A DNA stretch of 47,298 nt from Actinomycetota bacterium (GTDB taxonomy: Bacteria; Actinomycetota; Actinomycetes; Nanopelagicales; Nanopelagicaceae). The notes under the pieces are model-generated. The model worked only from the letters and a program-made list of their open reading frames with translations, was not told where the DNA came from and searched no databases. Of the stretch, positions 1 through 12,481 are shown one piece after another. Each line of letters starts with the position of its first letter. Within the stretch, counting starts at the first letter, position 1. The DNA lies in NCBI GenBank assembly GCA_026392935.1, contig JAPLBE010000007.1:1-47298 (forward strand). The letters are read 5' to 3'. The position numbers and the translations under genes are program-made.

Positions 1-1926
1 AGCTTTCGTCAATGCGATGGTTGAAGTGACTGGACCACCCTTACCAACACCAGCAGCGCAAGTTGGGCTTGGAATTCGAATCCATTGCGCATACAACGTC
101 GTAGAACTATTCAAAGTGATGGATGCACCAGGCGAATAACTGGTTCCTGTTCCATTTGCTGCTGTATTCCATCCATTGAAATCAAAACCTGTTAAAGAAA
201 ATCCAGATTCGTTAGGAGCTGAAATCGCTGAGCCATTTGCAGCAATTCCTGGGGCTTTAGTCCCGGTTCCAGAATTGGCATTAAATGTGAGATACGAGTA
301 GCCAGCTGACAATCCATATCGGATGATCACTACGCCGGTCCCACCGGCTTTTCCGTATGCACCACCGCCACCACGATTCGCAGCTGCATCAACACTTTGT
401 GTTGCAGCGCCACTTGGCGCTGTACCAGAACCGCCATTGTGGCCTGCACCGCCCGCGCCATAAAGAACTGAGCTTCCAGAAATATTTGATGTAACTCCTG
501 CGCCTCCCGCAAGAACATTGCCTGCCCCACCTGCACCACCACCGCCACCTGCACCGCAGCTTGCTGAACCGCAACCACTTCCATTTGTTCCGCCGAAACC
601 TCCGGCATTTCCATTTCCGCTGCTACCACCATAGGCACCTGCGTTATCAGCGAGAATATTTTTTGGAGTCTTTCCACCAGCCGCGATTACAGTGCCGAAA
701 CTTGAATAATCCCCATCATTTTCTTCAGAGTATCCAGAAGTCCCAGTTACCCCCGGTCCGATTCCACCTGCGCCAACATTTACTTGAAGTTGATCTCCAG
801 GGGTAGTGGTGACACTTGAGTTTGTAACAACGGCTCCACCACCACCGCCAGCCGGCCAATAGTAGTTACTAATTCCCTTGCTGCCGGCTCCACCGCCACC
901 AACAACTAGAGCTTCGATTGAAGAAACGCCGGTAGGGACTGTCCAATTACAAATGCTTACAGTTGAAAAAGTTAAAACGGTATAAGTATCAACAGTGCTT
1001 TGTGTGGGTGAACACGTTGCACCGCTCGTTTTATAGCGAATAACAACGAGGCCTGATCCACCTTTTTCACCACCACCACCACCGCCACCGGTGCCATCAA
1101 TGCCGGGATTTCCGTGACTAGTACCCGCACCTGTTCCTGAACCTGCTGATCCACCACCAAAAGCAGTCGCGCCGGTTCCACTTGCCCAACCGGCACCACC
1201 GCCGCCTATTGATAAGCCCCACAGGGTAACTCCGGTCCCGCCTGTTCTATTTGAGTTTGTACCACCAGCGCCAGCACCACCAGCACTCGTGCCGCTTCCT
1301 TGTGTTGAGCTATACCCATAACTATAAAAAGCTGAATAGCTATTTGTTATCGCAGAACCACTTCTGTTACTTAGGGCACCACCGCCGCCGCTACCGCCAC
1401 TCGCACCAGTGAGTCGAACATCGCCACCGCCGCTACCGCCACCAATTGCGTTGTATGAATTTGAAGCAATTGTGATAGTCGAAGTTTCACCATTCGTGCC
1501 GTTGGTCCAAAGAGTAGAACTTTGATAACCACCTGCACCACCGGCACCAACTTTCACACTGATCGAACTTCCTGATGAAACGGATAAAGGGGCCTTGGTC
1601 ATAAGTACTTGACCTGCGCCGCCACCGCCACCGTTACTACCAAAACCTGCACCGCCACCGCCACCGACCATCAAAACTTCAAGTAGAACATTTGATGAAT
1701 ATGTCGGCGCGGTCCAATCGCAACTCCCAACAGTCGAAAAAGTTACAACTGTGTATTCACCACTCGTGGTGGTTGTTGGCGAACAAGCTGCAGCATTCGC
1801 AGTTGAAGAAAGTGCCACCTGGCTAGGAATTGCGACAAAGAGTGAAAGAACTAAGACCCAGGAAATGGAGGTAGGCAGGGATTTGCGCAAAGTCGCATAT
1901 GTGCGGCGCAGAATCTCCAAGATCAC
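1..1926 (-). CDS. Secreted glycine-rich repeat protein (partial, C-terminus off window)
   Basis: This is an open frame of 642 codons running off the left edge. The start is GTG at 1926 behind AGAGG on the minus strand. Residues 1-45 form a signal peptide: basic start (LRR, RK), hydrophobic core WVLVLSLFVA and cleavage site ANA. Two glycine-rich modules follow, each opening with a TFSTVxxCxWTxP motif about 257 residues apart and then long Gly/Ala/Ser tracts with GGGGG runs ending in VVIRY or VVIIRY. Residues ~545-615 form a Listeria-Bacteroides (Flg_new/InlB-like) repeat with FNGWNTAANGTG and LYAQW. The modules resemble the Gly_rich_2 type family. It is probably an exported, surface-exposed or matrix protein. 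Its biological function is unknown and no catalytic motif is visible. The + strand ORFs over this region are shadows. Confidence 0.8.
   Translation of the reverse strand, partial: MILEILRRTYATLRKSLPTSISWVLVLSLFVAIPSQVALSSTANAAACSPTTTTSGEYTVVTFSTVGSCDWTAPTYSSNVLLEVLMVGGGGGAGFGSNGGGGGAGQVLMTKAPLSVSSGSSISVKVGAGGAGGYQSSTLWTNGTNGETSTITIASNSYNAIGGGSGGGDVRLTGASGGSGGGGALSNRSGSAITNSYSAFYSYGYSSTQGSGTSAGGAGAGGTNSNRTGGTGVTLWGLSIGGGGAGWASGTGATAFGGGSAGSGTGAGTSHGNPGIDGTGGGGGGGEKGGSGLVVIRYKTSGATCSPTQSTVDTYTVLTFSTVSICNWTVPTGVSSIEALVVGGGGAGSKGISNYYWPAGGGGGAVVTNSSVTTTPGDQLQVNVGAGGIGPGVTGTSGYSEENDGDYSSFGTVIAAGGKTPKNILADNAGAYGGSSGNGNAGGFGGTNGSGCGSASCGAGGGGGAGGAGNVLAGGAGVTSNISGSSVLYGAGGAGHNGGSGTAPSGAATQSVDAAANRGGGGAYGKAGGTGVVIIRYGLSAGYSYLTFNANSGTGTKAPGIAANGSAISAPNESGFSLTGFDFNGWNTAANGTGTSYSPGASITLNSSTTLYAQWIRIPSPTCAAGVGKGGPVTSTIALTKA
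941..1755 (-). repeat. Tandem glycine-rich module, ~771-bp period
   Basis: The segment encoding the TFSTVxxCxWTxP opening occurs twice on the minus strand. On the plus strand the two copies begin with GTCCAAT at 941 and 1712, which is 771 nt or 257 codons apart. Each is followed by GGT/GGC-rich coding sequence. The copies have diverged at the DNA level, so this is an old internal duplication rather than a recent tandem repeat. Confidence 0.6.
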
Positions 1927-1977
1927 TTTTACCTCTTAATTAGCATCGCTGAATCAGTATGTTCTAAGGGTAAAAGT

Positions 1978-2028
1978 GGGGTGATTTCATGCGTAGAGTA
2001 TTGGGGTGAAAAGGCCGTTTCTCACCCC
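1978..2028. promoter_or_regulatory. GGGGTGA repeat cluster upstream of the glycine-rich gene
   Basis: GGGGTGA occurs as direct copies at 1978-1984 and 2003-2009 and as the inverted copy TCACCCC at 2022-2028. The last two can form a stem around AAAGGCCGTTTC. There is no U-tract on either side, so this is not an ordinary terminator. Its position 50-100 bp upstream of the secreted-protein start suggests a regulatory role. Confidence 0.3.
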
Positions 2029-2041
2029 GAGATTTCACCTG

Positions 2042-2057
2042 TAAATACGCGTATTTA
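2042..2057. promoter_or_regulatory. 16-bp perfect palindrome, candidate operator
   Basis: TAAATACGCGTATTTA is a perfect 16-bp inverted repeat with no spacer. It lies in the 181-bp gap between tRNA-Arg and the glycine-rich secreted gene, about 115 bp upstream of that gene's start and beyond the tRNA terminator. A dimeric repressor site is plausible, but no regulator is identified. Confidence 0.35.
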
Positions 2058-2060
2058 GGG

Positions 2061-2099
2061 AAAAAGAAAAGCCTTCCGGTGTGAAAGGCACCGAAAGGC
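2061..2099 (-). terminator. Rho-independent terminator after tRNA-Arg
   Basis: Reading on the minus strand, an 11-bp stem with one mismatch (GCCTTTCGGTG paired with CACCGGAAGGC) and a short loop is followed by TTTTCTTTTT. It lies 8 nt past the 3' end of tRNA-Arg. Confidence 0.75.
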
Positions 2100-2107
2100 T
2101 CATCTCG

Positions 2108-2180
2108 TGCGCGCGAAGGGATTCGAACCCCTAACCTTCTGATCCGTAGTCAGATGCTCTATCCGTTGAGCTACGCACGC
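2108..2180 (-). tRNA. tRNA-Arg(ACG)
   Basis: This 73-nt cloverleaf has acceptor arm GCGTGCG pairing with CGCGCGC (one G-U) and discriminator A. The anticodon loop is CTACGGA, giving anticodon ACG, and the T-arm has GGTTCGAATCC. CCA is not encoded. Anticodon A34 is expected to be deaminated to inosine by TadA to read CGN codons. A hairpin terminator follows directly. Confidence 0.93.
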
Positions 2181-2264
2181 CTATGAAATTGTGTACTGCG
2201 AATCGGAATACTACCGGCTTTGTCTCGGAGTGAAAAATTCAGGATTTAAGGGGCAATCAGGCTC

Positions 2265-3704
<1,440 letters not shown>

Positions 3705-4979
3705 CTAAAGCCTACCGAGTTTTAACAGCTCTGCGCGAGTCACCGCCTTGCGACGCGGCTTGCCGAGCGGCTCTCCCGCGGCAATTTCTGCCTCGTTGAT
3801 GCTCTGCCAATGCTGCTGCGTGACCACCTTGTTATGTGTAATCACATCACTCACATCACCTGCATTCTTTGGGGAACCAAGATTATCTACTAACAATTTC
3901 ATGACATCTGCAGCGTCAGATTTATTCGTGCCAATTACTCCTGATGGCCCACGTTTGGCCCACCCGACAACGTACAGATTTTCACTTACATGTCCCTCAT
4001 TGTTTACGACTTTACCTTTTTGGTATGGAATCCCTTCAAGGGAAGCGGCTTCATAACCAATAGCGGTAATGACTAATCCACACTTAATGCTGAAAGTTTC
4101 ATCGGTGCCGGTCTTCTGAAATACAACTTCTTCGACTTTGCCGTTTCCCTTTATCTCTATTGGAGTTGCAAGGAATTGGAATTTCATCGTGCGCGCATGG
4201 GTAGTTGGTTCTTTATCGGCAATCAACAACATCGCATCAAGGTTGTTCTTCACATCTTTTTCGGGAGCATCGCCGGCGCGACCAATCGCCGCTTGGATAT
4301 CTGATTTATTCATAACCACATTGGTGTGCTCTAGCTTGGGTAATTCGCGAAGTTCTGGCGATGTGAATGCTGCATGCTCGGGTCCACGGCGCGCACTGAG
4401 AATCACTGTACGAACAGAACTATTCTTGAATTCCGCAATCGCATGGTCTGCGGTATCTGTTGGATCCAACTCAGCTGGTTCCAGAGCCAGCATGCGTGCG
4501 ACATCCATTGCAACATTTCCGGCACCGATTACAACAGCTGTCTCACAACTTAAATCAACGCTCTCATCTTTGAAATCCGGATGCGCGTTATACCAAGGTA
4601 CAAAAGTTGCAGCAGACATTGATCCTGCGAGTTCCTCGCCTGGAATTCCAAGTTTTTTCCCGAGTGCGGTTCCTGTAGCGATGACGACGGCGTCATACAT
4701 CTCTTTTAGCTGCTCGATTGTTATATCCGAACCAAGTTCAACGTTGGCAAATAATCGAAAGTCTGCTTCGTTCGCAACTTTCTCAAATACCTTTGAAACT
4801 GTTTTGATTTTTGGATGATCTGGAGCCACGCCGCTGCGAACCAATCCCCAGGGGGTAGGCAGACGTTCAATCATGTCCATTGAAAACTGCAATTCCTCGG
4901 TCTGAAGATTCTGCAGCGCCATCGCAGCAAAGTAGCCCGCAGGACCCGCGCCGACGATTGCTACTTTGTATTGAGGCAT
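3705..4979 (-). CDS. fprA: FprA-like ferredoxin/adrenodoxin-NADP+ reductase
   Basis: This 424-residue cytosolic flavoprotein opens with the FAD dinucleotide-binding motif VGAGPAGYFAA. The signature RLPTPWGLVRSGVAPDHPK of adrenodoxin-reductase-type enzymes follows. A second Rossmann motif, VIGAGNVAMDVAR, binds NADP(H), and the C-terminal GWAKRGPSGVIGTNKSDA is the conserved FAD-contact block. It transfers electrons between NADPH and ferredoxin. It is slightly shorter than mycobacterial FprA. It sits between an SDR gene (21-nt gap) and guaB1 (3-nt gap) on the same strand, so the three are probably one transcript. The ferredoxin partner is not in this window. Confidence 0.9.
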   Translation of the reverse strand: MPQYKVAIVGAGPAGYFAAMALQNLQTEELQFSMDMIERLPTPWGLVRSGVAPDHPKIKTVSKVFEKVANEADFRLFANVELGSDITIEQLKEMYDAVVIATGTALGKKLGIPGEELAGSMSAATFVPWYNAHPDFKDESVDLSCETAVVIGAGNVAMDVARMLALEPAELDPTDTADHAIAEFKNSSVRTVILSARRGPEHAAFTSPELRELPKLEHTNVVMNKSDIQAAIGRAGDAPEKDVKNNLDAMLLIADKEPTTHARTMKFQFLATPIEIKGNGKVEEVVFQKTGTDETFSIKCGLVITAIGYEAASLEGIPYQKGKVVNNEGHVSENLYVVGWAKRGPSGVIGTNKSDAADVMKLLVDNLGSPKNAGDVSDVITHNKVVTQQHWQSINEAEIAAGEPLGKPRRKAVTRAELLKLGRL

Positions 4980-5000
4980 TAATTCCGCGTTTCTTTGATG

Positions 5001-5759
5001 TTAATTCGCTAGGAAACCACCATCAACTGGCAAAACTACTCCAGTGATGTAATCCGAAGCTGGAGCAGAGAGAAAAATAGCTGCACCAGTGAGATCACTT
5101 GGCTGACCCCAGTGACCCATTGGAATCCGAGAAGTTATGGCAGCAGCGCGATCTGCATCATTATGGACAACTTTATTGATATCTGTCTTAATAAAGCCTG
5201 GTGCAATTGCGTTTACACGCACTCCAAGAGGTGCTAACTCATTTGAAATACCTCTTGTTAAGCCCGCTATCGCTGTTTTAGCAGCGGTATAACTTATTAC
5301 ATTCTGTCCACCCAAGAAGCTCCACATAGATCCTATGAAAATAATCTTCCCGTATTTTCTTTCTACCATCTGCTTAGTTACTGCTTTAGTAATCAAATAT
5401 GGTGCCGTTAAATCAGCTTCGATAGTTTCATCCCATTGCTTTTCGCTATGCTCAAGAAAACTAGCTCTATTGACTAGCCCTGAATTGTTAACGAGAATAT
5501 CAATTCGTTCTTCTTCAAGCTTTTTACATACATCAACGGTTTGCTCACGATTCTTGAAATCGCATTTATAGCTTTTGAATTTTCGACCAAGGGCAGTTAC
5601 CGCGAGTTCAATCTCACTGCCTGGCTCGATGGCAGAGCTGACTGTGATGATGTCAGCACCGTGTTCAGCTAAGCCGCGTGCAATAGCAAAACCGATACCG
5701 GTTCTAGCACCAGTAACTAAGGCAGTTTTCCCGGTTAAGTCAAAGAAATTACTAGTCAT
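5001..5759 (-). CDS. SDR-family oxidoreductase (KduD-like)
   Basis: This 252-residue classical short-chain dehydrogenase has the cofactor motif TGARTGIG near residue 17, NNSG near 92, the catalytic Ser in FIGSM, and YTAAK, then the PGFIKTD and PVDGGF endings usual for the fold. The overall pattern resembles 2-deoxy-D-gluconate or gluconate 3/5-dehydrogenases (KduD/IdnO type), but the substrate cannot be fixed from sequence. The start ATG follows GGGGA at a good distance. The gene begins 37 nt after the 3' end of tRNA-Ser(GCT) with no terminator between, so it may be co-transcribed with the tRNA and with fprA-guaB1 downstream. Confidence 0.82.
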   Translation of the reverse strand: MTSNFFDLTGKTALVTGARTGIGFAIARGLAEHGADIITVSSAIEPGSEIELAVTALGRKFKSYKCDFKNREQTVDVCKKLEEERIDILVNNSGLVNRASFLEHSEKQWDETIEADLTAPYLITKAVTKQMVERKYGKIIFIGSMWSFLGGQNVISYTAAKTAIAGLTRGISNELAPLGVRVNAIAPGFIKTDINKVVHNDADRAAAITSRIPMGHWGQPSDLTGAAIFLSAPASDYITGVVLPVDGGFLAN

Positions 5760-5796
5760 GTTTCCCCAACTTTCAACGGCATTTAACGTAATCTGG

Positions 5797-5885
5797 CGGA
5801 GACGAGGAGATTTGAACTCCTGAAGGGTTTAACCCCTTACCTCGTTAGCAGTGAGGCGCACTCGACCGGGCTATGCGACGTCTCC
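5797..5885 (-). tRNA. tRNA-Ser(GCT)
   Basis: This 89-nt type II tRNA has acceptor GGAGACG pairing with CGTCTCC and discriminator G as expected for serine tRNAs. The anticodon loop carries GCT. The long variable arm is GTAAGGGGTTAAACCCTT-like and can self-pair, and the T-loop is TTCAAAT. CCA is not fully encoded. It precedes the SDR-fprA-guaB1 genes on the same strand. Confidence 0.93.
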
Positions 5886-5962
5886 AAGTGTGTTTGAAGT
5901 TTACAGGGAAAAGCCTCGAACTGGTAAATCTCTGCGGATTAGAACAGGCGCGTAATAGCGCT

Positions 5963-6715
5963 TTAACGGCCCAGAATGAATCTCACCGTGAGAAGAAAGC
6001 CAAATCTCTTCGATGGTGGCTTTAGGATAAAAAGCAACCTCATGAATGGCGCCCATATTCCAAAGACACGTGTAAATATTTTTGATCGAGCTAATGCATC
6101 CGCTTTTGTATTGCGCAAATTCCCTGAACTCTCTGCAGGGTGTGTAGCAATAACAATCGGTAGAAATCGACCTTTTAATCCTGCACGAAGTCCATCAGCG
6201 ATAAAAATGTATTCATCACCCAGATAATTCTTTGCTCCAGCACCAAAATTCTCATCAAAATAAATGGATTTGCTCTTAAAATCTTCAACTCGGATAATCA
6301 TTTCGTATGTAGCGGCTTTAGCCGAATTAGTGAGCTTCAAATCGTGTGCCTTACTTGGATAACTCTTTCGAAGAACATTCTTCTCGTCTACTGTCTGTAA
6401 TAATAGGATTGAAATATCTGAATGCTTCTCAAGATACTGTATTGCTTTGTGAATTGAATGCTCATTGAATATGATGTCATCATCACCAAAAAGCAAGTAC
6501 TTTGTTTCTGTATTAGAAATCGCTGCGTTTCTACTTTTTGCAACACCTCTACTTGATAATTCAATTCTCTTGTACTTGCTTCTAAGCTGATTTGTGGCCA
6601 ACGAGGTCGAACTTTGAACAACCACTAGGTTCTTAAACTCCTCAAGGAACTTAATATTGTGCTCACGCTCGGCAAGCGTAGAGTAGCCAATCGTTAACAA
6701 AGTATTGCTACTCAC
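5963..6715 (-). CDS. Family 2-like glycosyltransferase
   Basis: This protein of about 250 residues has a GT-A-like layout: an N-terminal strand LLTIGYSTLAER, the stretch RGVAKSRNAAI, then the metal/nucleotide-sugar motif FGDDDIIF near residue 85, and later LGDEYIF as the acceptor-side acidic pair. It ends in a hydrophobic and basic tail that may touch the membrane. I chose GTG at 6715, whose reading overlaps the TAG stop of the upstream membrane gene; TTG at 6736 is an alternative giving 7 more residues. The sequence is visibly A+T-richer than the flanking housekeeping genes. Position beside CDP-alcohol phosphotransferases suggests it glycosylates a lipid or polymer. The substrate is unknown. 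Confidence 0.7.
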   Translation of the reverse strand: MSSNTLLTIGYSTLAEREHNIKFLEEFKNLVVVQSSTSLATNQLRSKYKRIELSSRGVAKSRNAAISNTETKYLLFGDDDIIFNEHSIHKAIQYLEKHSDISILLLQTVDEKNVLRKSYPSKAHDLKLTNSAKAATYEMIIRVEDFKSKSIYFDENFGAGAKNYLGDEYIFIADGLRAGLKGRFLPIVIATHPAESSGNLRNTKADALARSKIFTRVFGIWAPFMRLLFILKPPSKRFGFLLTVRFILGR

Positions 6716-7478
6716 TATGAGTAAGTGCCCTTGCAAATCTCATAAGCCCAGTAGAGATATTCGAAAAGTTCGAATTTTGCATTCTTAATCCAAAGAAAAG
6801 AACAATCGTATTTGACTGGCTAATGCCACCGGTATAGCTGAGATATATCAGTGCCGCAAGGAGAATCAACATCGCTAATCCAGAAATCAGAATTCCTGTC
6901 TCTCCTGATTTAATGCGAGTTGCGATACGCACCACATTTGCGACAGGTGTCTTATTCTTTCTAGCAACTACGAAGCCGCGTTGAGCCTCAATTTGGTGTT
7001 GAAACAACCTTCCATAGATTTGGAATATAGCGAGAACGATTAAAAGATTGATAAGCCCAAAACGCCAGTCCAAGTAGGTAAAGAATAGAAAGATCACACC
7101 AAGTTGAGTGCACGTGCTGAGGAGATTTGTAAGTTCGAAGGCGAGTGACCAGCGCCAGTTCTCTTTAGCGCCGACAACTTCAGAATTAGATGCTTTGAAT
7201 GCATTGTCAAATACTCGAACTCTGTAGATGCGCTGAAGAAAATGGCCTGCACGAGTAATTCCGAAGAAGAGAAAGAACCCGATGATGAAAAGTATGAACT
7301 TTGTTTGGCTCATTGTGTCTTCATCAAGAATTATTTTTGTAAACAACTTAGCTACGGCCAATTCTGATACAGAAATCATTGCCGCAATGAGCACAAGGCC
7401 AACCAATATCAATCGATATCTTGTAGTCGTGAACAATTGCTTGAAAGCAGCAGATAACTCTCTAATGACTACTAGCAT
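6708..7478 (-). CDS. Membrane protein resembling an ABC-exporter transmembrane domain, no ATPase
   Basis: This 256-residue protein has five or six hydrophobic segments, near residues 24-44, 63-83, 112-150 (two) and 195-235. Spacing and the cytoplasmic stretch between helices recall type-1 ABC exporter membrane domains. The C-terminus FGLRMQNSNFSNISTGLM resembles the last helix of such a domain. No Walker A, signature or Walker B motif follows in any frame; instead the glycosyltransferase begins. It starts 2 nt after the CDP-alcohol gene stop behind GAGGAA, so it is translated within this operon. It may pair with an ATPase encoded elsewhere or be a repurposed membrane subunit. Function is not assigned. 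Confidence 0.6.
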   Translation of the reverse strand: MLVVIRELSAAFKQLFTTTRYRLILVGLVLIAAMISVSELAVAKLFTKIILDEDTMSQTKFILFIIGFFLFFGITRAGHFLQRIYRVRVFDNAFKASNSEVVGAKENWRWSLAFELTNLLSTCTQLGVIFLFFTYLDWRFGLINLLIVLAIFQIYGRLFQHQIEAQRGFVVARKNKTPVANVVRIATRIKSGETGILISGLAMLILLAALIYLSYTGGISQSNTIVLFFGLRMQNSNFSNISTGLMRFARALTHSE

Positions 7479-7480
7479 TT

Positions 7481-8254
7481 CTAGTTATTCCTCAATTTGG
7501 ACGAAGTCACAATCGCTGTGATGTGTCCAAGAGTAACAAATGCTGCGATACCTAGCGCTACTTCAATAGACGCGCTGAAACTTCCAAAGAGCACCACAAA
7601 AAAAGTGAATTCAACTGAGTGAAACATTCTCTGCGCTGGTAGAAAGTTAAATGCCTTGCGGATGGATCTGAGTATGCCTTTTACCGGAAGATTGGCACCT
7701 TTCTTATCTTGAATTTTATTGAGTCCAGAGAAAGCTCTCGCTACATGAACTGCATCATTAAGCCCCTTGTTAATAATCACCAGGATCGCAAGTAGCGCAC
7801 CAAAATAGGGATAGATAGAGCTTGTCACAGATTCAGTAGGCCAATTAGCCAATCGCAGTCCTAAGCAAAGCGGCAATAAACATTCTGCTAAATAGTGCCC
7901 GAGTTTATCTAAGAAGATTCCCATTGGAGATTTTGTCTCTCGCCAACGAGCAACTTCACCATCGCAACAATCGATGAGCATTTGAAGTTGACTTAAGAAG
8001 AGTGCAAGTGCGATTCCAACCCAGCCTTGAATAAGAAGTGCTGGGCCTATTGACGCACCAGTAACAATCATCAACCAGGTGACGCCATTTGCAGAGATCG
8101 AAGTCTTAAGCAAGATTCGAGTCAGATATGGTGACAATCTACGTTGATAAAGATCAGCAATCCAGTGTTCAGAAGTTGATCGCCCAGTGACAGAAACTGG
8201 CTGCGAAATTTCGCGAATCTGGGCAATAGTGGGACGGGCAGGCCTATCAGACAT
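7481..8254 (-). CDS. CDP-alcohol phosphatidyltransferase family membrane protein
   Basis: This 257-residue integral membrane protein carries the family motif as DCCDGEVAR, then eight residues, G, three residues, D, three residues, H. The last aspartate of the consensus D-x2-DG-x2-AR-x8-G-x3-D-x3-D is therefore His here (sequence GIFLDKLGHY). That residue normally serves as the catalytic base. Hydrophobic helices surround the motif. The enzyme class condenses a CDP-linked alcohol with an acceptor alcohol, as in phosphatidylinositol-type lipid synthesis. The ATG follows GGAGG, 2 nt downstream of the 541-residue homologue's stop. The specific alcohol is unknown. The change to His may mark a subfamily rather than inactivity. 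Confidence 0.82.
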   Translation of the reverse strand: MSDRPARPTIAQIREISQPVSVTGRSTSEHWIADLYQRRLSPYLTRILLKTSISANGVTWLMIVTGASIGPALLIQGWVGIALALFLSQLQMLIDCCDGEVARWRETKSPMGIFLDKLGHYLAECLLPLCLGLRLANWPTESVTSSIYPYFGALLAILVIINKGLNDAVHVARAFSGLNKIQDKKGANLPVKGILRSIRKAFNFLPAQRMFHSVEFTFFVVLFGSFSASIEVALGIAAFVTLGHITAIVTSSKLRNN

Positions 8255-8256
8255 TT

Positions 8257-9882
8257 CTACTGTGCCTCCGTTTTCCGGCTAGCAATCCATTGCACCGAAG
8301 AAACTATAAAGAAAAGAATTCCTAAATAGTAGAGAAGGGGCAATAGTGAGAAGCCAGCCCAAATCATCGCTGCAAGAATTAGAAGTCGCCCTGCGATAAA
8401 TCCGCCTGCAATAGATAGCCATCGTGGTTTTGATTCAGACTGCAAGGCGCGATACATATTGTCATAGTGATTAAAAAGAATTGCGAATAGGAGCAAGAAC
8501 AAAACCGAACGGTCTAAATCGCTCAAGACAGCTAGCGCGATAAAGACAGCACCTTCTACCAGTCTCAAAATTGAAGGTTCAACCCAATCAAATCTATTGT
8601 TAGATTTCTTGTCACGGAAAGTATCTAATTGGTCATCAATAAGGTTCTTATTAACTCTTTCCTTAGGCCATGTAAGAGTCTTGCGAATTCGACCTCTAAA
8701 GACCAAGGCAATAGATATGAGTGCGAGTATCGGCATGATGGTGAAAGTAAAGGCGGCCCCACCAATCACTGATGAAGCACTGATAACTAACCACCGCTCA
8801 CCGATAGGGAATTGCACGGCTTTTTTGGACCAGTATTCAAAGCGAGTTTTCTTTTCGCGCTCAACACTCACAAATCCATCAGACTTAATATCGAAATCTA
8901 ATGGGGCCAACTGAGAGCTTCGGATTTTGTTAATTCTTGCAAAGTTGTAATCGGATAGATGTCTAAATGTTTGAAAAAGCATCATTCCCATCGCAGGAAT
9001 CCAAAGATCGCGACCATCTTTCGCTGCGCCATAGGCAAGTGCGAAGAAGACTAAATACTCTTTTATTCTGTCTGTAATCGCGTCTAACCATGCACCCAAT
9101 TGTGAGAATTGTCGGGTGTATCGCGCAAGTTCTCCATCAACACAATCGATGATAATGCTCAACTGTAATAGGACCGCTCCCGTAAAGATTGACCAAAAAT
9201 CCCCACGGCTAAATTCATAGGCTGACACGAGTCCGACTGCAAATGAAATAAGAGTTACTTGATTGGGAGTCATTTTCAAGCGAACTGCAAGCCATGTAAA
9301 TAACTTTGAAAATTTGCGGAGGAAGAAGACAGAGAAAAATCCATCATTTGTGCGATTAGCTAACTTAAGACGCAGCCGCGCATCATTAAGAGCAGCGATT
9401 TCTTTTCTGACTGTTTCTCGCTCGCTCGGATTAGCTGATCGAATATATGGAGCACCGGCAACTTCTGCCGGCGCAACCACTAGAGCTGCTCGCACTAGCG
9501 CTACAAGAACTAAATCAAGTGCGTGACCTGCATGATGGGTGTCCTTAACTTTTGACAAAACGTCAAGAATTTCGGATCTCTGAAACTGCGATAAGCGAAC
9601 TATCCCTAGAAAAGTACGATTCCCGTATCCAACTTCATGGAAGCCAGAACTAGCCCCCGTAATTCGACCTTGGCTAACTCGAGTTGATCCGCCCTTTAGT
9701 TTTGCAACCAAAGCAGTTGTAACGGTGCGTGGGTAATCAGTGAGTAATTCAAGATGTGGTTGGGAAACCACGGAGCTTTCATCAACAAGTAGTAGATCCT
9801 GATTAGTAGATTCAAATGCGAGCAGAATTTCAGCAATCTTGGTGTCCGGATGAACATCAAAAGTACGAAGATTTCCCGTCAT
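8257..9882 (-). CDS. Three-part CDP-alcohol phosphatidyltransferase fusion (DUF5941-like C-terminus)
   Basis: This 541-residue protein has three parts. Residues ~1-165 look like a degenerate nucleotidyltransferase (LLLVDESSVV, then TTALV and GNRTFLGIVRLS) lacking the LAAGxGxR loop. Residues ~195-400 are a CDP-alcohol phosphatidyltransferase with the intact motif DCVDGELAR and GAWLDAITDR. Residues ~440-540 are a helical membrane region like the DUF5941 domains attached to actinobacterial homologues. The product probably acts at the cytoplasmic membrane in phospholipid or phosphodiester-polymer synthesis. A TAGATT hexamer lies 7 nt before the ATG and no Shine-Dalgarno sequence is seen, so the transcript may be leaderless. 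It heads a minus-strand operon with the next three genes. Confidence 0.8.
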   Translation of the reverse strand: MTGNLRTFDVHPDTKIAEILLAFESTNQDLLLVDESSVVSQPHLELLTDYPRTVTTALVAKLKGGSTRVSQGRITGASSGFHEVGYGNRTFLGIVRLSQFQRSEILDVLSKVKDTHHAGHALDLVLVALVRAALVVAPAEVAGAPYIRSANPSERETVRKEIAALNDARLRLKLANRTNDGFFSVFFLRKFSKLFTWLAVRLKMTPNQVTLISFAVGLVSAYEFSRGDFWSIFTGAVLLQLSIIIDCVDGELARYTRQFSQLGAWLDAITDRIKEYLVFFALAYGAAKDGRDLWIPAMGMMLFQTFRHLSDYNFARINKIRSSQLAPLDFDIKSDGFVSVEREKKTRFEYWSKKAVQFPIGERWLVISASSVIGGAAFTFTIMPILALISIALVFRGRIRKTLTWPKERVNKNLIDDQLDTFRDKKSNNRFDWVEPSILRLVEGAVFIALAVLSDLDRSVLFLLLFAILFNHYDNMYRALQSESKPRWLSIAGGFIAGRLLILAAMIWAGFSLLPLLYYLGILFFIVSSVQWIASRKTEAQ

Positions 9883-9889
9883 AAGCGGT

Positions 9890-9895
9890 AATCTA
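9890..9895 (-). promoter_or_regulatory. Candidate -10 for a leaderless transcript of the 541-residue transferase
   Basis: TAGATT on the minus strand ends 7 nt before the ATG at 9882. No Shine-Dalgarno sequence precedes that ATG. The -35 region is not recognisable. Confidence 0.45.
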
Positions 9896-9943
9896 TCGTG
9901 CTTAAGCGGAATTTTCGGTCAAAGTTAGGTTTAGAAGGTAGAG

Positions 9944-10639
9944 ATGGCGATTCAAGTTGTAATTCTTGCAGCAGGTATGGGAACAAGGTTGGGAAAGCCA
10001 TGGCCGAAACCACTTACACCATTATCTGACGGCCGTTCCATCATGCAACAACAGATGGAGAATGTGACTAAAGTTTTTGGTGACAAAGCACGCATAACTG
10101 TAGTAGTTGGATTTAAATTGGAAATGATTATTGAAGCGCATCCAAATGCAAGTTTTGTCTATAACGAAATTTATGATCAGACAAATACATCTAAGAGTTT
10201 ACTAAAGGCACTCGTTGCAAGTCATGAACCTGGAGTGCTTTGGTTAAATGGCGATGTTGTCTTTGATGCGAAGGTTTTAGAGCGAGTTGCTTCTCGTATT
10301 GAATCTGAAAAATCATTTGTATGTGTAAATACTTCTGCAACCGCCGAAGAAGAAGTTAAGTACACGGTCGATGCGAATGGTTTCATCAAGGAACTCTCCA
10401 AGACTGTCAAAAATGCTCTAGGCGAAGCAGTCGGAATTAACTTTATCTCCGCAAGTGAGAAGGTGCATGTGATTGCGCAGCTTGATGCTTGTGGCGAGCA
10501 AGACTACTTTGAGCGTGGACTTGAGCTTGCGATCGAGAAGAACGGAATCAAGTTGGAACCTGTTGATATCTCAGATCTCTTTGCAGTAGAAGTTGATTTT
10601 CAAGCAGACCTTGATAGAGCAAATGAAGGTCTTAAGTAG
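9944..10639 (+). CDS. Sugar/polyol-phosphate nucleotidyltransferase
   Basis: This 231-residue NTP-transferase-fold protein has the signature LAAGMGTRLGKPWPKPL at residues 8-24, and WLNGDVVFD near 100 as the metal-binding acidic pair. The fold matches small cytidylyl- or nucleotidyltransferases acting on phosphocholine, inositol phosphate or sugar phosphates. A good AGAAGG sits 5 nt before the ATG. It is divergent (61 bp) from the CDP-alcohol transferase genes. This suggests it makes the CDP-activated alcohol they use and supplies the activity missing from the degenerate N-terminal domain of the 541-residue protein. The substrate is inferred only from context. Its TAG stop abuts the stop of the convergent gene with no gap. 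Confidence 0.78.
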   Translation: MAIQVVILAAGMGTRLGKPWPKPLTPLSDGRSIMQQQMENVTKVFGDKARITVVVGFKLEMIIEAHPNASFVYNEIYDQTNTSKSLLKALVASHEPGVLWLNGDVVFDAKVLERVASRIESEKSFVCVNTSATAEEEVKYTVDANGFIKELSKTVKNALGEAVGINFISASEKVHVIAQLDACGEQDYFERGLELAIEKNGIKLEPVDISDLFAVEVDFQADLDRANEGLK

Positions 10640-12481
10640 TTAAAGGCTGACTCTACGAAGTCCTTCTTTGATTGCCATTTCAACTTCTGAAATCTTTAGC
10701 TCTGGGATAGTGACAGTTTCGACCAAAGGTTCTATTTCGCTCCAATTAAGTTTGGGGTTAATTGGCGTTGGACTAATGACTTTTACATCTGCACCTAGGG
10801 CATAGTCGATATATTTAATTCCATCTCCGTGCACATATTCTTCAAATCCTTTAAAGACTACAAGGGCGCAGGGAATTCCATAGCTTTGGCATGTGATTAG
10901 TACGTGCATTGCGCTTGTTACAACGCAATCGTATTGAAGTAGATTCTCAATGAATTCCACAATGTCGTTTGGGTGCGAAACTTGCACTGATAACTCATCG
11001 AAATTCTCTGGAAGTTTTACAGGCGCCTGCAGGTGAGTGTGATGACGCACTAGTGCTACGCGGCCATTGGTTGTTCCACGAGTGAGCGGAAGAATTCTTG
11101 AGAGAACTACACCTGGGTCGCCAAAGGTTTCAATTTTCGGCCCACCTGACTGGATAAGTAGTTCGGCGGTGTGAGGTCCTCTCACTGACACGAAATCGGC
11201 TTTGGGATTAATTGCGTGCTTGAAGGAACTCACGCCAGTGCCAACAACAACTGAATTGCTTTTGATAAATCGTCCGACAGAACCAAGGCCCACTATATGT
11301 TTCTTGGGAGCTCGTGTTGTAAGGCCTTGGAAAATGATCTTACTCTCGGTGTAATGATTGAAGATGAATGGGGTTAACCAGTCTCCATAGTTTCCAGGGT
11401 ACGGATTTTCCCACCATGATAAATTCACTTTTGATTTGCTTGGTTTTGATGAATACGTCAAGAAACTTGATGCAACTCTAATTGCAGCACTTTCATATCT
11501 GTTTGGTAGCACTCTACGTTTGAAGATTGTAAGAGTGTCATTGAATTTCTTTACATCACCCGCTTTAGCTGCAATAACTAATTCGCGAACGGCTTCGCTA
11601 CTCAAGTTATTGTGTTTCTTTCCAGTTAAGAATCCGGTAATACCTGATGCATCGACTAGGAGGCGCAATTTTGTTGAGAGATTTTCAGGTAATTTCTCTT
11701 CAATTAGCTTGGCAAGCTGAAGAACTTCTCGCTTTGGGTTGAATTTTTTCTTAGCTTTACTGCCCTTATGTTGCTCAACTTTGTTTTTGAAGTTCTCAAC
11801 CTGGCCACTCGACCCGAATCGGAAGAAAACTTCGTGGCTTTCTAGAGTTCCGGCGCCTTTATCTACCGCGCAATTTGAAGGAATGATCTGGAATGTCATG
11901 TTTGGAGAGACCGCTCTCCACGCTTCTTCAAAAAAGAAATCATCGGTTGCTCGCACTGTTGCAGCAGCTTCGAAATCTGCAGCTGCTCTCACCATTTTTC
12001 TTGCTTGGGCGGTAGTGTTGATTCCCCAGAAACATGGCTCCCAAAAACGACCTCTGTTCTCATAACCAATCTTTGCTGGAGTGCTGAAGCCTCGCTGGAA
12101 ACCAATAATGTCCGCAGTTGAATTGAGAATGAAATCTGGTATTGAGAATATCTCGCAATCTACATCTATCCAGAAAACTTTCTTTCCTGGATTTGCTTCG
12201 CATACTTCTGCGATAAAGCCGACTTTCTTGCGGCAGATATCTGCCCAGTCTTCACCTGGGCGCTTAGTAATCTGTCGCAAATCGTAAGCAATTCCAAGTT
12301 CTTCTAGGTTTGCTTGAAGTCGCATTGCATGACTTCTGTAATAATCATCACCTGTGAAAAACGAGCAGACAATCGCGTTTTCAATTTCTAACTTCTTACT
12401 ATTTTTCAGCGATACTGGAGCCGTAAATTGCTCTTCTAGGGCAGCAAGGATGTCCTTGCCCTCAAAGTCGAGTGAACTCAT
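10640..12481 (-). CDS. Glycosyltransferase-polysaccharide pyruvyl transferase fusion
   Basis: This 613-residue protein has two domains. Residues ~35-240 resemble a GT-A glycosyltransferase: AIVCSFFTGDDYY, then FWIDVDCEIF with a DxD-type motif, and later ATDDFFFEEAW. Residues ~350-600 match the polysaccharide pyruvyl transferase fold (NYGDWLTPF, VVVGTGVSS, VRGPHTAELL, FGDPGVVLSR and SAMHVLITCQSYGIP). A helical linker of about 110 residues joins them. The combination suggests addition of a sugar and a ketal pyruvate to a surface glycan. No signal peptide or membrane segment is seen. TACCTT lies 6 nt before the ATG, compatible with leaderless expression. The role is inferred from domains. Confidence 0.72.
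   Translation of the reverse strand: MSSLDFEGKDILAALEEQFTAPVSLKNSKKLEIENAIVCSFFTGDDYYRSHAMRLQANLEELGIAYDLRQITKRPGEDWADICRKKVGFIAEVCEANPGKKVFWIDVDCEIFSIPDFILNSTADIIGFQRGFSTPAKIGYENRGRFWEPCFWGINTTAQARKMVRAAADFEAAATVRATDDFFFEEAWRAVSPNMTFQIIPSNCAVDKGAGTLESHEVFFRFGSSGQVENFKNKVEQHKGSKAKKKFNPKREVLQLAKLIEEKLPENLSTKLRLLVDASGITGFLTGKKHNNLSSEAVRELVIAAKAGDVKKFNDTLTIFKRRVLPNRYESAAIRVASSFLTYSSKPSKSKVNLSWWENPYPGNYGDWLTPFIFNHYTESKIIFQGLTTRAPKKHIVGLGSVGRFIKSNSVVVGTGVSSFKHAINPKADFVSVRGPHTAELLIQSGGPKIETFGDPGVVLSRILPLTRGTTNGRVALVRHHTHLQAPVKLPENFDELSVQVSHPNDIVEFIENLLQYDCVVTSAMHVLITCQSYGIPCALVVFKGFEEYVHGDGIKYIDYALGADVKVISPTPINPKLNWSEIEPLVETVTIPELKISEVEMAIKEGLRRVSL

Follow-up and report, generated by a model that had tools for sequence, protein, structure and literature searches.

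A degenerate nucleotidyltransferase domain fused to a CDP-alcohol phosphotransferase, and its separately encoded intact neighbour, in actinobacteria

The window analysed here (the whole stretch of 47,298 bp, from contig JAPLBE010000007.1 of a member of the Nanopelagicaceae) encodes a 541-amino acid (aa) protein in which a nucleotidyltransferase (NTase) domain without recognisable catalytic residues is fused to an intact CDP-alcohol phosphotransferase. A separate 231-aa NTase with intact active-site residues is encoded beside it. This conserved arrangement of freshwater actinobacteria probably builds a phosphate-linked group on the cell surface.

The explanation preferred here, and held with moderate confidence, is a two-gene activation-and-transfer module within a surface-glycan cluster. 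The 231-aa enzyme would join CTP to a polar alcohol phosphate; from the resulting CDP-alcohol, the 541-aa membrane enzyme would pass the phospho-alcohol on to an acceptor, and this acceptor is probably a lipid or a glycan linked to a lipid. The N-terminal domain, its active site lost, would be kept as a docking or control element on the cytosolic side, where it may act on the active NTase or on the CDP-alcohol made by that enzyme; this is the weakest step of the scheme.

The gene pair and its surroundings

The fusion gene occupies positions 8257–9882 of the minus strand, and its coordinates and length were confirmed. A wrong start call was ruled out, as the open frame has 553 codons, just 12 extra. 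The pseudo-NTase domain comprises residues 1–169 (9376–9882, minus strand) and is supported by the model, by fold and profile matches and by column counts. The phosphotransferase core, residues 176–405 (8668–9357, minus strand), is supported by Pfam PF01066, invariant columns and a match to the archaeal protein AF2299, and the C-terminal membrane part with DUF5941, residues 406–541 (8260–8667, minus strand), by Pfam PF19365 and the helices of the model. The stand-alone NTase lies on the plus strand (9944–10639) and is a probable cytidylyltransferase by Pfam (PF12804), alignment and a PDB profile search. A divergent intergenic region of 61 bases (9883–9943) separates the two genes; the earlier note had described a separate, divergent NTase gene 61 bp away, and both the coordinates and the intact active-site residues bear this out.

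Pfam and locus comparison identify the surrounding genes, all on the minus strand. These encode a second CDP-alcohol phosphotransferase of 257 aa (7481–8254), a 256-aa membrane protein (6708–7478) that has no Pfam match and no convincing relative in a profile search (best 0.057), a family 2 glycosyltransferase of 257 aa (5963–6736; this length applies to a TTG start, and an ATG or GTG start gives 250 aa), and a 613-aa protein with a polysaccharide pyruvyl transferase domain at its C-terminus (10640–12481).

The pseudo-nucleotidyltransferase domain

The N-terminal domain is NTase-derived and has no recognisable catalytic residues. Residues 1–170 have no Pfam match (E up to 1). An AlphaFold2 model of the 541-aa protein, built from the window protein and 39 homologs (pLDDT 90.5, pTM 0.85), gives residues 1–169 an NTase fold, with matches to the Thermotoga maritima inositol-1-phosphate cytidylyltransferase 4jd0 (Z 11.4, 158 aligned residues, 3.9 Å), to PntC 6pd1 (Z 11.4, 155 aligned, 2.9 Å) and to 2xme (Z 10.0, 129 aligned, 2.7 Å). 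The earlier note had set beforehand an unrelated fold as an outcome that would refute its reading; structure prediction returned the NTase fold, and the matches of the model reject an unrelated one.

Profile comparison with hhalign points the same way when homologs are pooled. N-terminal stretches of 130 aa or more were obtained from 100 of the 108 loci examined, with the window counted as number 101. Ninety-one homologous N-termini align with 42 partner NTases over 187 columns (probability 91.2, E 1e-6), with a reversed control of 0.1. The 18 window-lineage N-termini alone score 0.3, under their own reversed control of 1.0, and the Streptomyces-type N-termini alone give no match (0.2). Intermediate relatives reach 61.7, homologs with long N-termini 58.9, and the window lineage combined with the intermediate relatives 79.7.

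With 169 aa, the domain is about 60–75 residues short of full NTases (231–245 aa), and the loop is part of the missing stretch, which lies in the N-terminal half. Homologs with long N-termini (e.g. loci L044 and L137) have extra sequence at this place, which, as judged by eye, is a decayed loop region. A loop-like motif (LAAGxGxR) is absent from the first 260 residues of the window protein and of all 105 distinct fusion homologs, some of which are N-terminally incomplete. A fused domain that is still catalytically active is therefore rejected on sequence. The two conserved Asp columns of the partner enzymes are occupied by Ser36 and Ala150 in the window protein, the second column being possibly off by one. 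The first column has Asp in 36 of 91 N-termini and the second in two, and a column adjoining the second has Asp in 31 of 91. Thus the NTase-like domain without LAAGxGxR that was originally proposed is upheld by the fold of the model, by the pooled profile match and by the absence of the motif.

On the preferred explanation, the relatives of this domain are the cytidylyltransferase domains that IPCT/DIPPS and AF2299 carry as fusions. At the sequence level, comparison of the domain with AF2299 or 4mnd gave no match or a non-significant one.

The membrane part

The Pfam CDP-OH_P_transf match covers residues 205–316 of the 541-aa protein (47.2 bits, cut-off 22). The signature of the core, D246xxD249G250xxA253R254...G263xxxD267xxxD271, is intact and is invariant in 40 aligned sequences, and the chemistry of phospho-alcohol transfer is assigned to the core for this reason. 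DUF5941 (PF19365) matches residues 429–509 with 34.4 bits (cut-off 27). Both an intact CDP-alcohol transferase and a DUF5941-like tail had been claimed from the sequence, and both readings were right.

In the model, the tail forms four helices (residues 432–453, 458–480, 495–509 and 514–540). Residues 177–541 superpose on the human enzymes CEPT1/CHPT1 (8gyw, 9uet) with Z 19.7, 296–300 aligned residues, 3.6–3.7 Å and 12% identity. A model of a Streptomyces homolog (pLDDT 86.9, pTM 0.84) gives Z 19.7–19.8, 310 aligned residues and 3.8–3.9 Å. The superposition spans the C-terminal helices in both whole-protein models, with the caveat that helical bundles align easily; the core alone matches PgsA1 over 190 residues (Z 14.6). 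CEPT1 is a class II enzyme with a polar donor and a lipophilic acceptor, and its TM7–10 form a dimerization domain, according to the available part of PMC10156783. Given this superposition, DUF5941 may be a CEPT1-like dimerization domain. The ease with which helical bundles superpose speaks against this, as does the absence here of a His that adjoins a motif Asp in CEPT1.

The stand-alone nucleotidyltransferase

The 231-aa protein belongs to NTP_transf_3 (Pfam, 66.8 bits). Its LAAGMGTR motif is at residues 8–15 (positions 9965–9988), and L8-A9-A10-G11-G13-R15, K22, D104 and D218 are invariant in 21 aligned NTase sequences. The LAAGxGxR loop, the Lys that follows and the two Asp are active-site features of LicC/PntC/IPCT-like cytidylyltransferases. 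In a profile search, the three best PDB relatives of the 231-aa family are PntC (1.1e-14), LicC (7.9e-14) and IPCT (1.5e-9), all CTP-using enzymes. We infer that the 231-aa enzyme makes a CDP-alcohol from CTP. The earlier note had the separate enzyme in this role; its nearest relatives and its conserved position as a neighbour are consistent with that, and the claim stands to this extent, as an indirect one.

Alternatively, the 231-aa NTase might act in a nucleotide-sugar reaction of the glycan cluster that has nothing to do with the phosphotransferase, which would then draw its CDP-alcohol from another source. The protein does match family models of sugar NTases such as Arch_glmU and AglF, all far below cut-off, and the window genome has four other NTP_transf_3 genes. 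However, at the top of the profile search stand CTP enzymes that act on alcohol phosphates or phosphonates, and the araM-like gene described below accompanies one NTase subtype only. We regard this alternative as improbable.

Conservation of the pair

Three scans supplied 8, 20 and 80 loci, in total 108 examined, of which 105 are distinct; the last was a scan of named genomes, and its 80 loci are a part of 568 candidates that encode relatives. Three loci are duplicates (L037/L112, L081/L116 and L088/L155), and the second of each pair is left out of distinct counts. A partner NTase is present in the available stretch of 71 of the 105 distinct loci, the window not being counted. The pairing of fusion and NTase is not chance, because it recurs in these 71 other loci. 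Sixty-six distinct loci have flanks of 6.5 kb or more to either side of the fusion; the partner is near in 50 of them and missing nearby in 16, and ten of these 16 fall in a single clade of 12 in the core tree. When duplicates are kept, there are 73 partners, 52 of 68 fusions have a partner nearby, and the araM-like gene is found in 34/34 loci of one subtype versus 0/39 of the other. LAAGxGxR is present in all 73 partner NTases (71 distinct).

The spacing of the two genes varies. In the window lineage they are mostly divergent with 19–63 bases between them, a distance that reaches 1.7 kb in L075 and L102. All 11 named Streptomyces records show a 4-bp overlap, the match to the NTase beginning within the final 4 bases of the fusion.

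Of the 296 class genomes searched, 79 have a DUF5941 match, 78 of them above cut-off. Its distribution inside the window's genus is patchy: among 36 genomes of this genus that were searched, a strong relative (72% identity) is present in G030 only, and the remaining matches are 1e-9 or weaker and within the common transferase domain. Another genome of this genus, G320, was added by the class-wide DUF5941 search. No relative was found in the viral contigs searched.

Two subtypes of the locus

The partner loci are of two subtypes. A Streptomyces-type NTase is present in 33 of the 71, and all 33 have an araM-like gene; the window-type NTase is present in the other 38, where no araM-like gene was found, several of these stretches being short. 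The araM-like protein is closest to glycerol-1-phosphate dehydrogenases (4rgq, 1.9e-42), and its best NCBIfam model, below cut-off, is also glycerol-1-phosphate dehydrogenase. A tree of the fusion core clusters by subtype, with four changes of the araM label versus 27.6 when shuffled; this is a quick tree with long branches that meet, and duplicates were kept, so that near-copies help the clustering. One araM-type locus, L091, sits among window-type rows.

Relatives of the second phosphotransferase are found in 38/38 window-type and 31/33 araM-type distinct loci. The 256-aa membrane protein and the family 2 glycosyltransferase are each kept in 16 of 38 window-type loci, and the 613-aa protein with the pyruvyl transferase domain is found in ten. 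Exporter, LCP, TagF-like and glycosyltransferase genes, which some of the loci carry, assign the module to the synthesis of surface glycans. Additional sulfate-activation and sulfotransferase-like genes (weak matches) are present in one relative from the genus of the window.

Candidate alcohols

The presence of a glycerol-1-phosphate-dehydrogenase-like gene in every Streptomyces-type locus suggests CDP-glycerol, made from glycerol-1-phosphate, as the donor of the araM subtype. Glycerol-1-phosphate is the stereoisomer typical of archaea. The simplest candidates for the window subtype would be glycerol-3-phosphate or inositol phosphate; nothing marks its head group as new, although the earlier note thought that it could be. 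The window genome has an inositol-1-phosphate synthase, which may serve phosphatidylinositol only. The genome is 95.92% complete (tool estimate), and gene absences are therefore provisional: a search for glycerol-1-phosphate dehydrogenase gave nothing above cut-off and two weak matches below it, and neither TagF-like nor TagD genes gave a match. Without a TagF-like gene, a teichoic-type polymer is unsupported in this genome.

Two other possibilities were considered and rejected. TagD-type supply of CDP-glycerol is above cut-off in 0/23 genomes, with weaker matches in 10/23; two of 14 control genomes are above cut-off. For a phosphonate substrate, the PEP mutase model is above cut-off in none of ten window-type genomes, and in none of the 14 controls as well; the window genome has no match. 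Five of the ten have weaker matches, all below cut-off, which include those of same-genus G320 (1.3e-34) and G101 (7.6e-43).

A wider picture can be drawn, although we give it little credence: a Kennedy-like actinobacterial pathway, in which the dead domain on a ten-helix, CEPT1-shaped phosphotransferase would recruit the free cytidylyltransferase and control it by feedback, and phospho-alcohols would be placed onto lipid-linked surface glycans. The alcohol would be glycerol-1-phosphate in Streptomyces and another, perhaps undescribed, in the window lineage.

The role of the retained domain

Relative to L095, dN/dS is lowest in the NTase (0.013), followed by the core (0.027), the N-terminal domain (0.032) and the tail (0.057). 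L095 forms the one pair of nine with a value in every segment; the eight other pairs have no value in at least one segment because synonymous sites are near or past saturation. The N-terminal domain thus looks constrained; the low ratio points to its being retained and is silent on its function, the role of scaffold or regulator put forward in the earlier note included. Its dN is 1.6 to 3.6 times that of the core in all nine pairs, and since the domain evolves faster than the core its role may be minor.

The domain could be a structural cap only, which orders or shields the cytosolic face and never touches the 231-aa enzyme; the genes would then be neighbours through a shared pathway. There is a precedent in AF2299, where, in the available part of PMC4634129, residues of the TM2–TM3 loop are buried in pockets on the surface of the same kind of domain. 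The faster evolution of the domain agrees with a cap, as do the 16 of 66 well-flanked loci that have no partner nearby. On the other hand, H82 is found in 70 of the 71 rows of the domain alignment that have a residue there, and R131 in 73 of 91, and this conservation could mean more than a cap; the 4-bp gene overlap in Streptomyces also speaks against it. A cap without contact to the NTase is a real but lesser possibility.

A regulator is plausible by analogy with GMPPA/GMPPB, in which an inactive NTase controls an active one. GMPPA, a non-catalytic NTase paralogue, binds the product and its active partner GMPPB, according to the accessible text of PMC11228364. The dead domain might likewise bind the CDP-alcohol, the active NTase or both, and feed back on synthesis. 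Conservation of the partner gene fits with this, but the domain of the window lineage is also shortened, and we consider feedback of this kind rather doubtful. A plain structural cap as in AF2299 and a regulator are about as likely. In the preferred reading, the dead domain would be retained for docking, for control or for a structural purpose.

Beyond what had been noted from the sequence at first, the analysis brought out the AF2299 precedent, the second phosphotransferase at 7481–8254, the broad conservation of the module as two subtypes and a membrane part that is CEPT1-like in shape, its DUF5941 tail included. DUF5941, a widespread domain of unknown function, gains a structural hypothesis, and a structurally solved archaeal enzyme is tied to a gene cluster of actinobacteria for which definite candidate substrates can be named. 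With the araM split (33/33 versus 0/38), the question of the Streptomyces donor becomes directly testable. A dead domain retained beside a live copy is also a clean case for the study of pseudoenzymes.

Comparison with known systems

AF2299 of Archaeoglobus fulgidus (4o6m, 4o6n, 4q7c) resembles the fusion in having a cytidylyltransferase-like N-terminal domain and a CDP-alcohol phosphotransferase core. Among PDB entries it gives the best sequence match (1.9e-15, over the core only), and it aligns with model residues 1–400 (Z 18.7, 295 aligned, 6.8 Å) and with the Streptomyces homolog model (Z 20.1, 300 aligned, 7.4 Å). A pocket of AF2299 holds the glycerol of CDP-glycerol, in the same partly available source (PMC4634129). 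The match stops at chain residue 341–344, corresponding to model residue 400–403. Past this point the window protein continues for about 136 residues, which contain DUF5941 and four more helices, and a separate active-looking NTase gene adjoins the fusion gene.

IPCT/DIPPS (4mnd, NF041135) has the same two-domain order and the phosphotransferase signature. By its PDB and NCBIfam name, both activities are in one chain, whereas the fused NTase of the window has neither LAAGxGxR nor an active site, and the intact NTase is a separate protein. NF041135 scores 75.8 bits (cut-off 580) on the membrane part of the fusion and, in a separate match, 30.1 bits on almost all of the 231-aa protein, both far below cut-off; a split version of the enzyme would be expected to give this pattern.

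The model of the window protein superposes on the class II enzymes CEPT1/CHPT1, but the protein does not have the His of CEPT1 that follows a motif Asp: the residues after D246, D249, D267 and D271 are C, G, A and R. In CEPT1 this His is one of two proposed bases (PMC10156783, available part). In the bacterial CDP-choline pathway, a separate NTase, LicC, produces a polar CDP-alcohol, and the Treponema denticola CPT, a protein with a CDP-alcohol phosphatidyltransferase domain, transfers to diacylglycerol (PMC6805115). The NTase is separate there, as it is here; the available part of that paper does not mention an NTase-like domain on the transferase.

A syntenic region of Streptomyces contains CDP-alcohol phosphatidyltransferase, GT2, tagG, tagH, araM and NTase clusters (PMC13118837), and is very probably the araM-type locus. 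The accessible part of that work reports the synteny and makes no mention of the dead domain or of the window subtype. The term DUF5941 was not found in the literature searched, which includes few of the subscription papers, nor was a description of a dead fused domain paired with a live free enzyme, of the two subtypes or of the CEPT1-like tail. The Streptomyces neighbourhood, the AF2299-type fusion and, from the CDP-choline pathway, a free NTase with a separate transferase are already known.

Twelve fusion genes form a single clade in the tree (those at L040, L139, L142, L143, L154, L156, L158, L160, L163, L165, L170 and L173), and the named members are from records of Planotetraspora, Nonomuraea, Microbispora and Microtetraspora. 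The separate partner nucleotidyltransferase was not found in the stretch examined around each of these fusions. In G052, the one genome looked at in this respect, the partnerless fusion of this clade is a second copy, and the other copy (L039) has a partner.

Four relatives' loci, L100, L102, L129 and L136, are in records that carry the title Bifidobacterium breve. These titles look wrong: gene order or close sequence matches those of uncultured Nanopelagicales-type metagenome-assembled genomes.

In genome G320, of the same genus as the window, an island adjoins the module (L075, positions 1009–6963). It contains PAPS_reduct-type, GTPase/APS kinase and TauE genes, together with two sulfotransferase-like genes, one with a Pfam match below the cut-off and the other with no match. 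This gene content points to a surface polymer that carries sulfate.

At the 5′ edge of the window, the reverse strand encodes a glycine-rich, secreted-looking protein (positions 1–1926), incomplete as the window's end cuts it. Its C-terminal repeat resembles bacterial surface repeats. Also on the reverse strand, near the module, is a 256-residue membrane protein (positions 6708–7478) that is conserved in 16 of the 38 window-type loci, i.e. distinct loci that have a partner similar to that of the window. A Pfam search gave no match for this protein, and the top match in a PDB profile search, to a lipid A flippase, is unconvincing (0.057). The protein resembles an ABC exporter's membrane half, with the ATPase absent.
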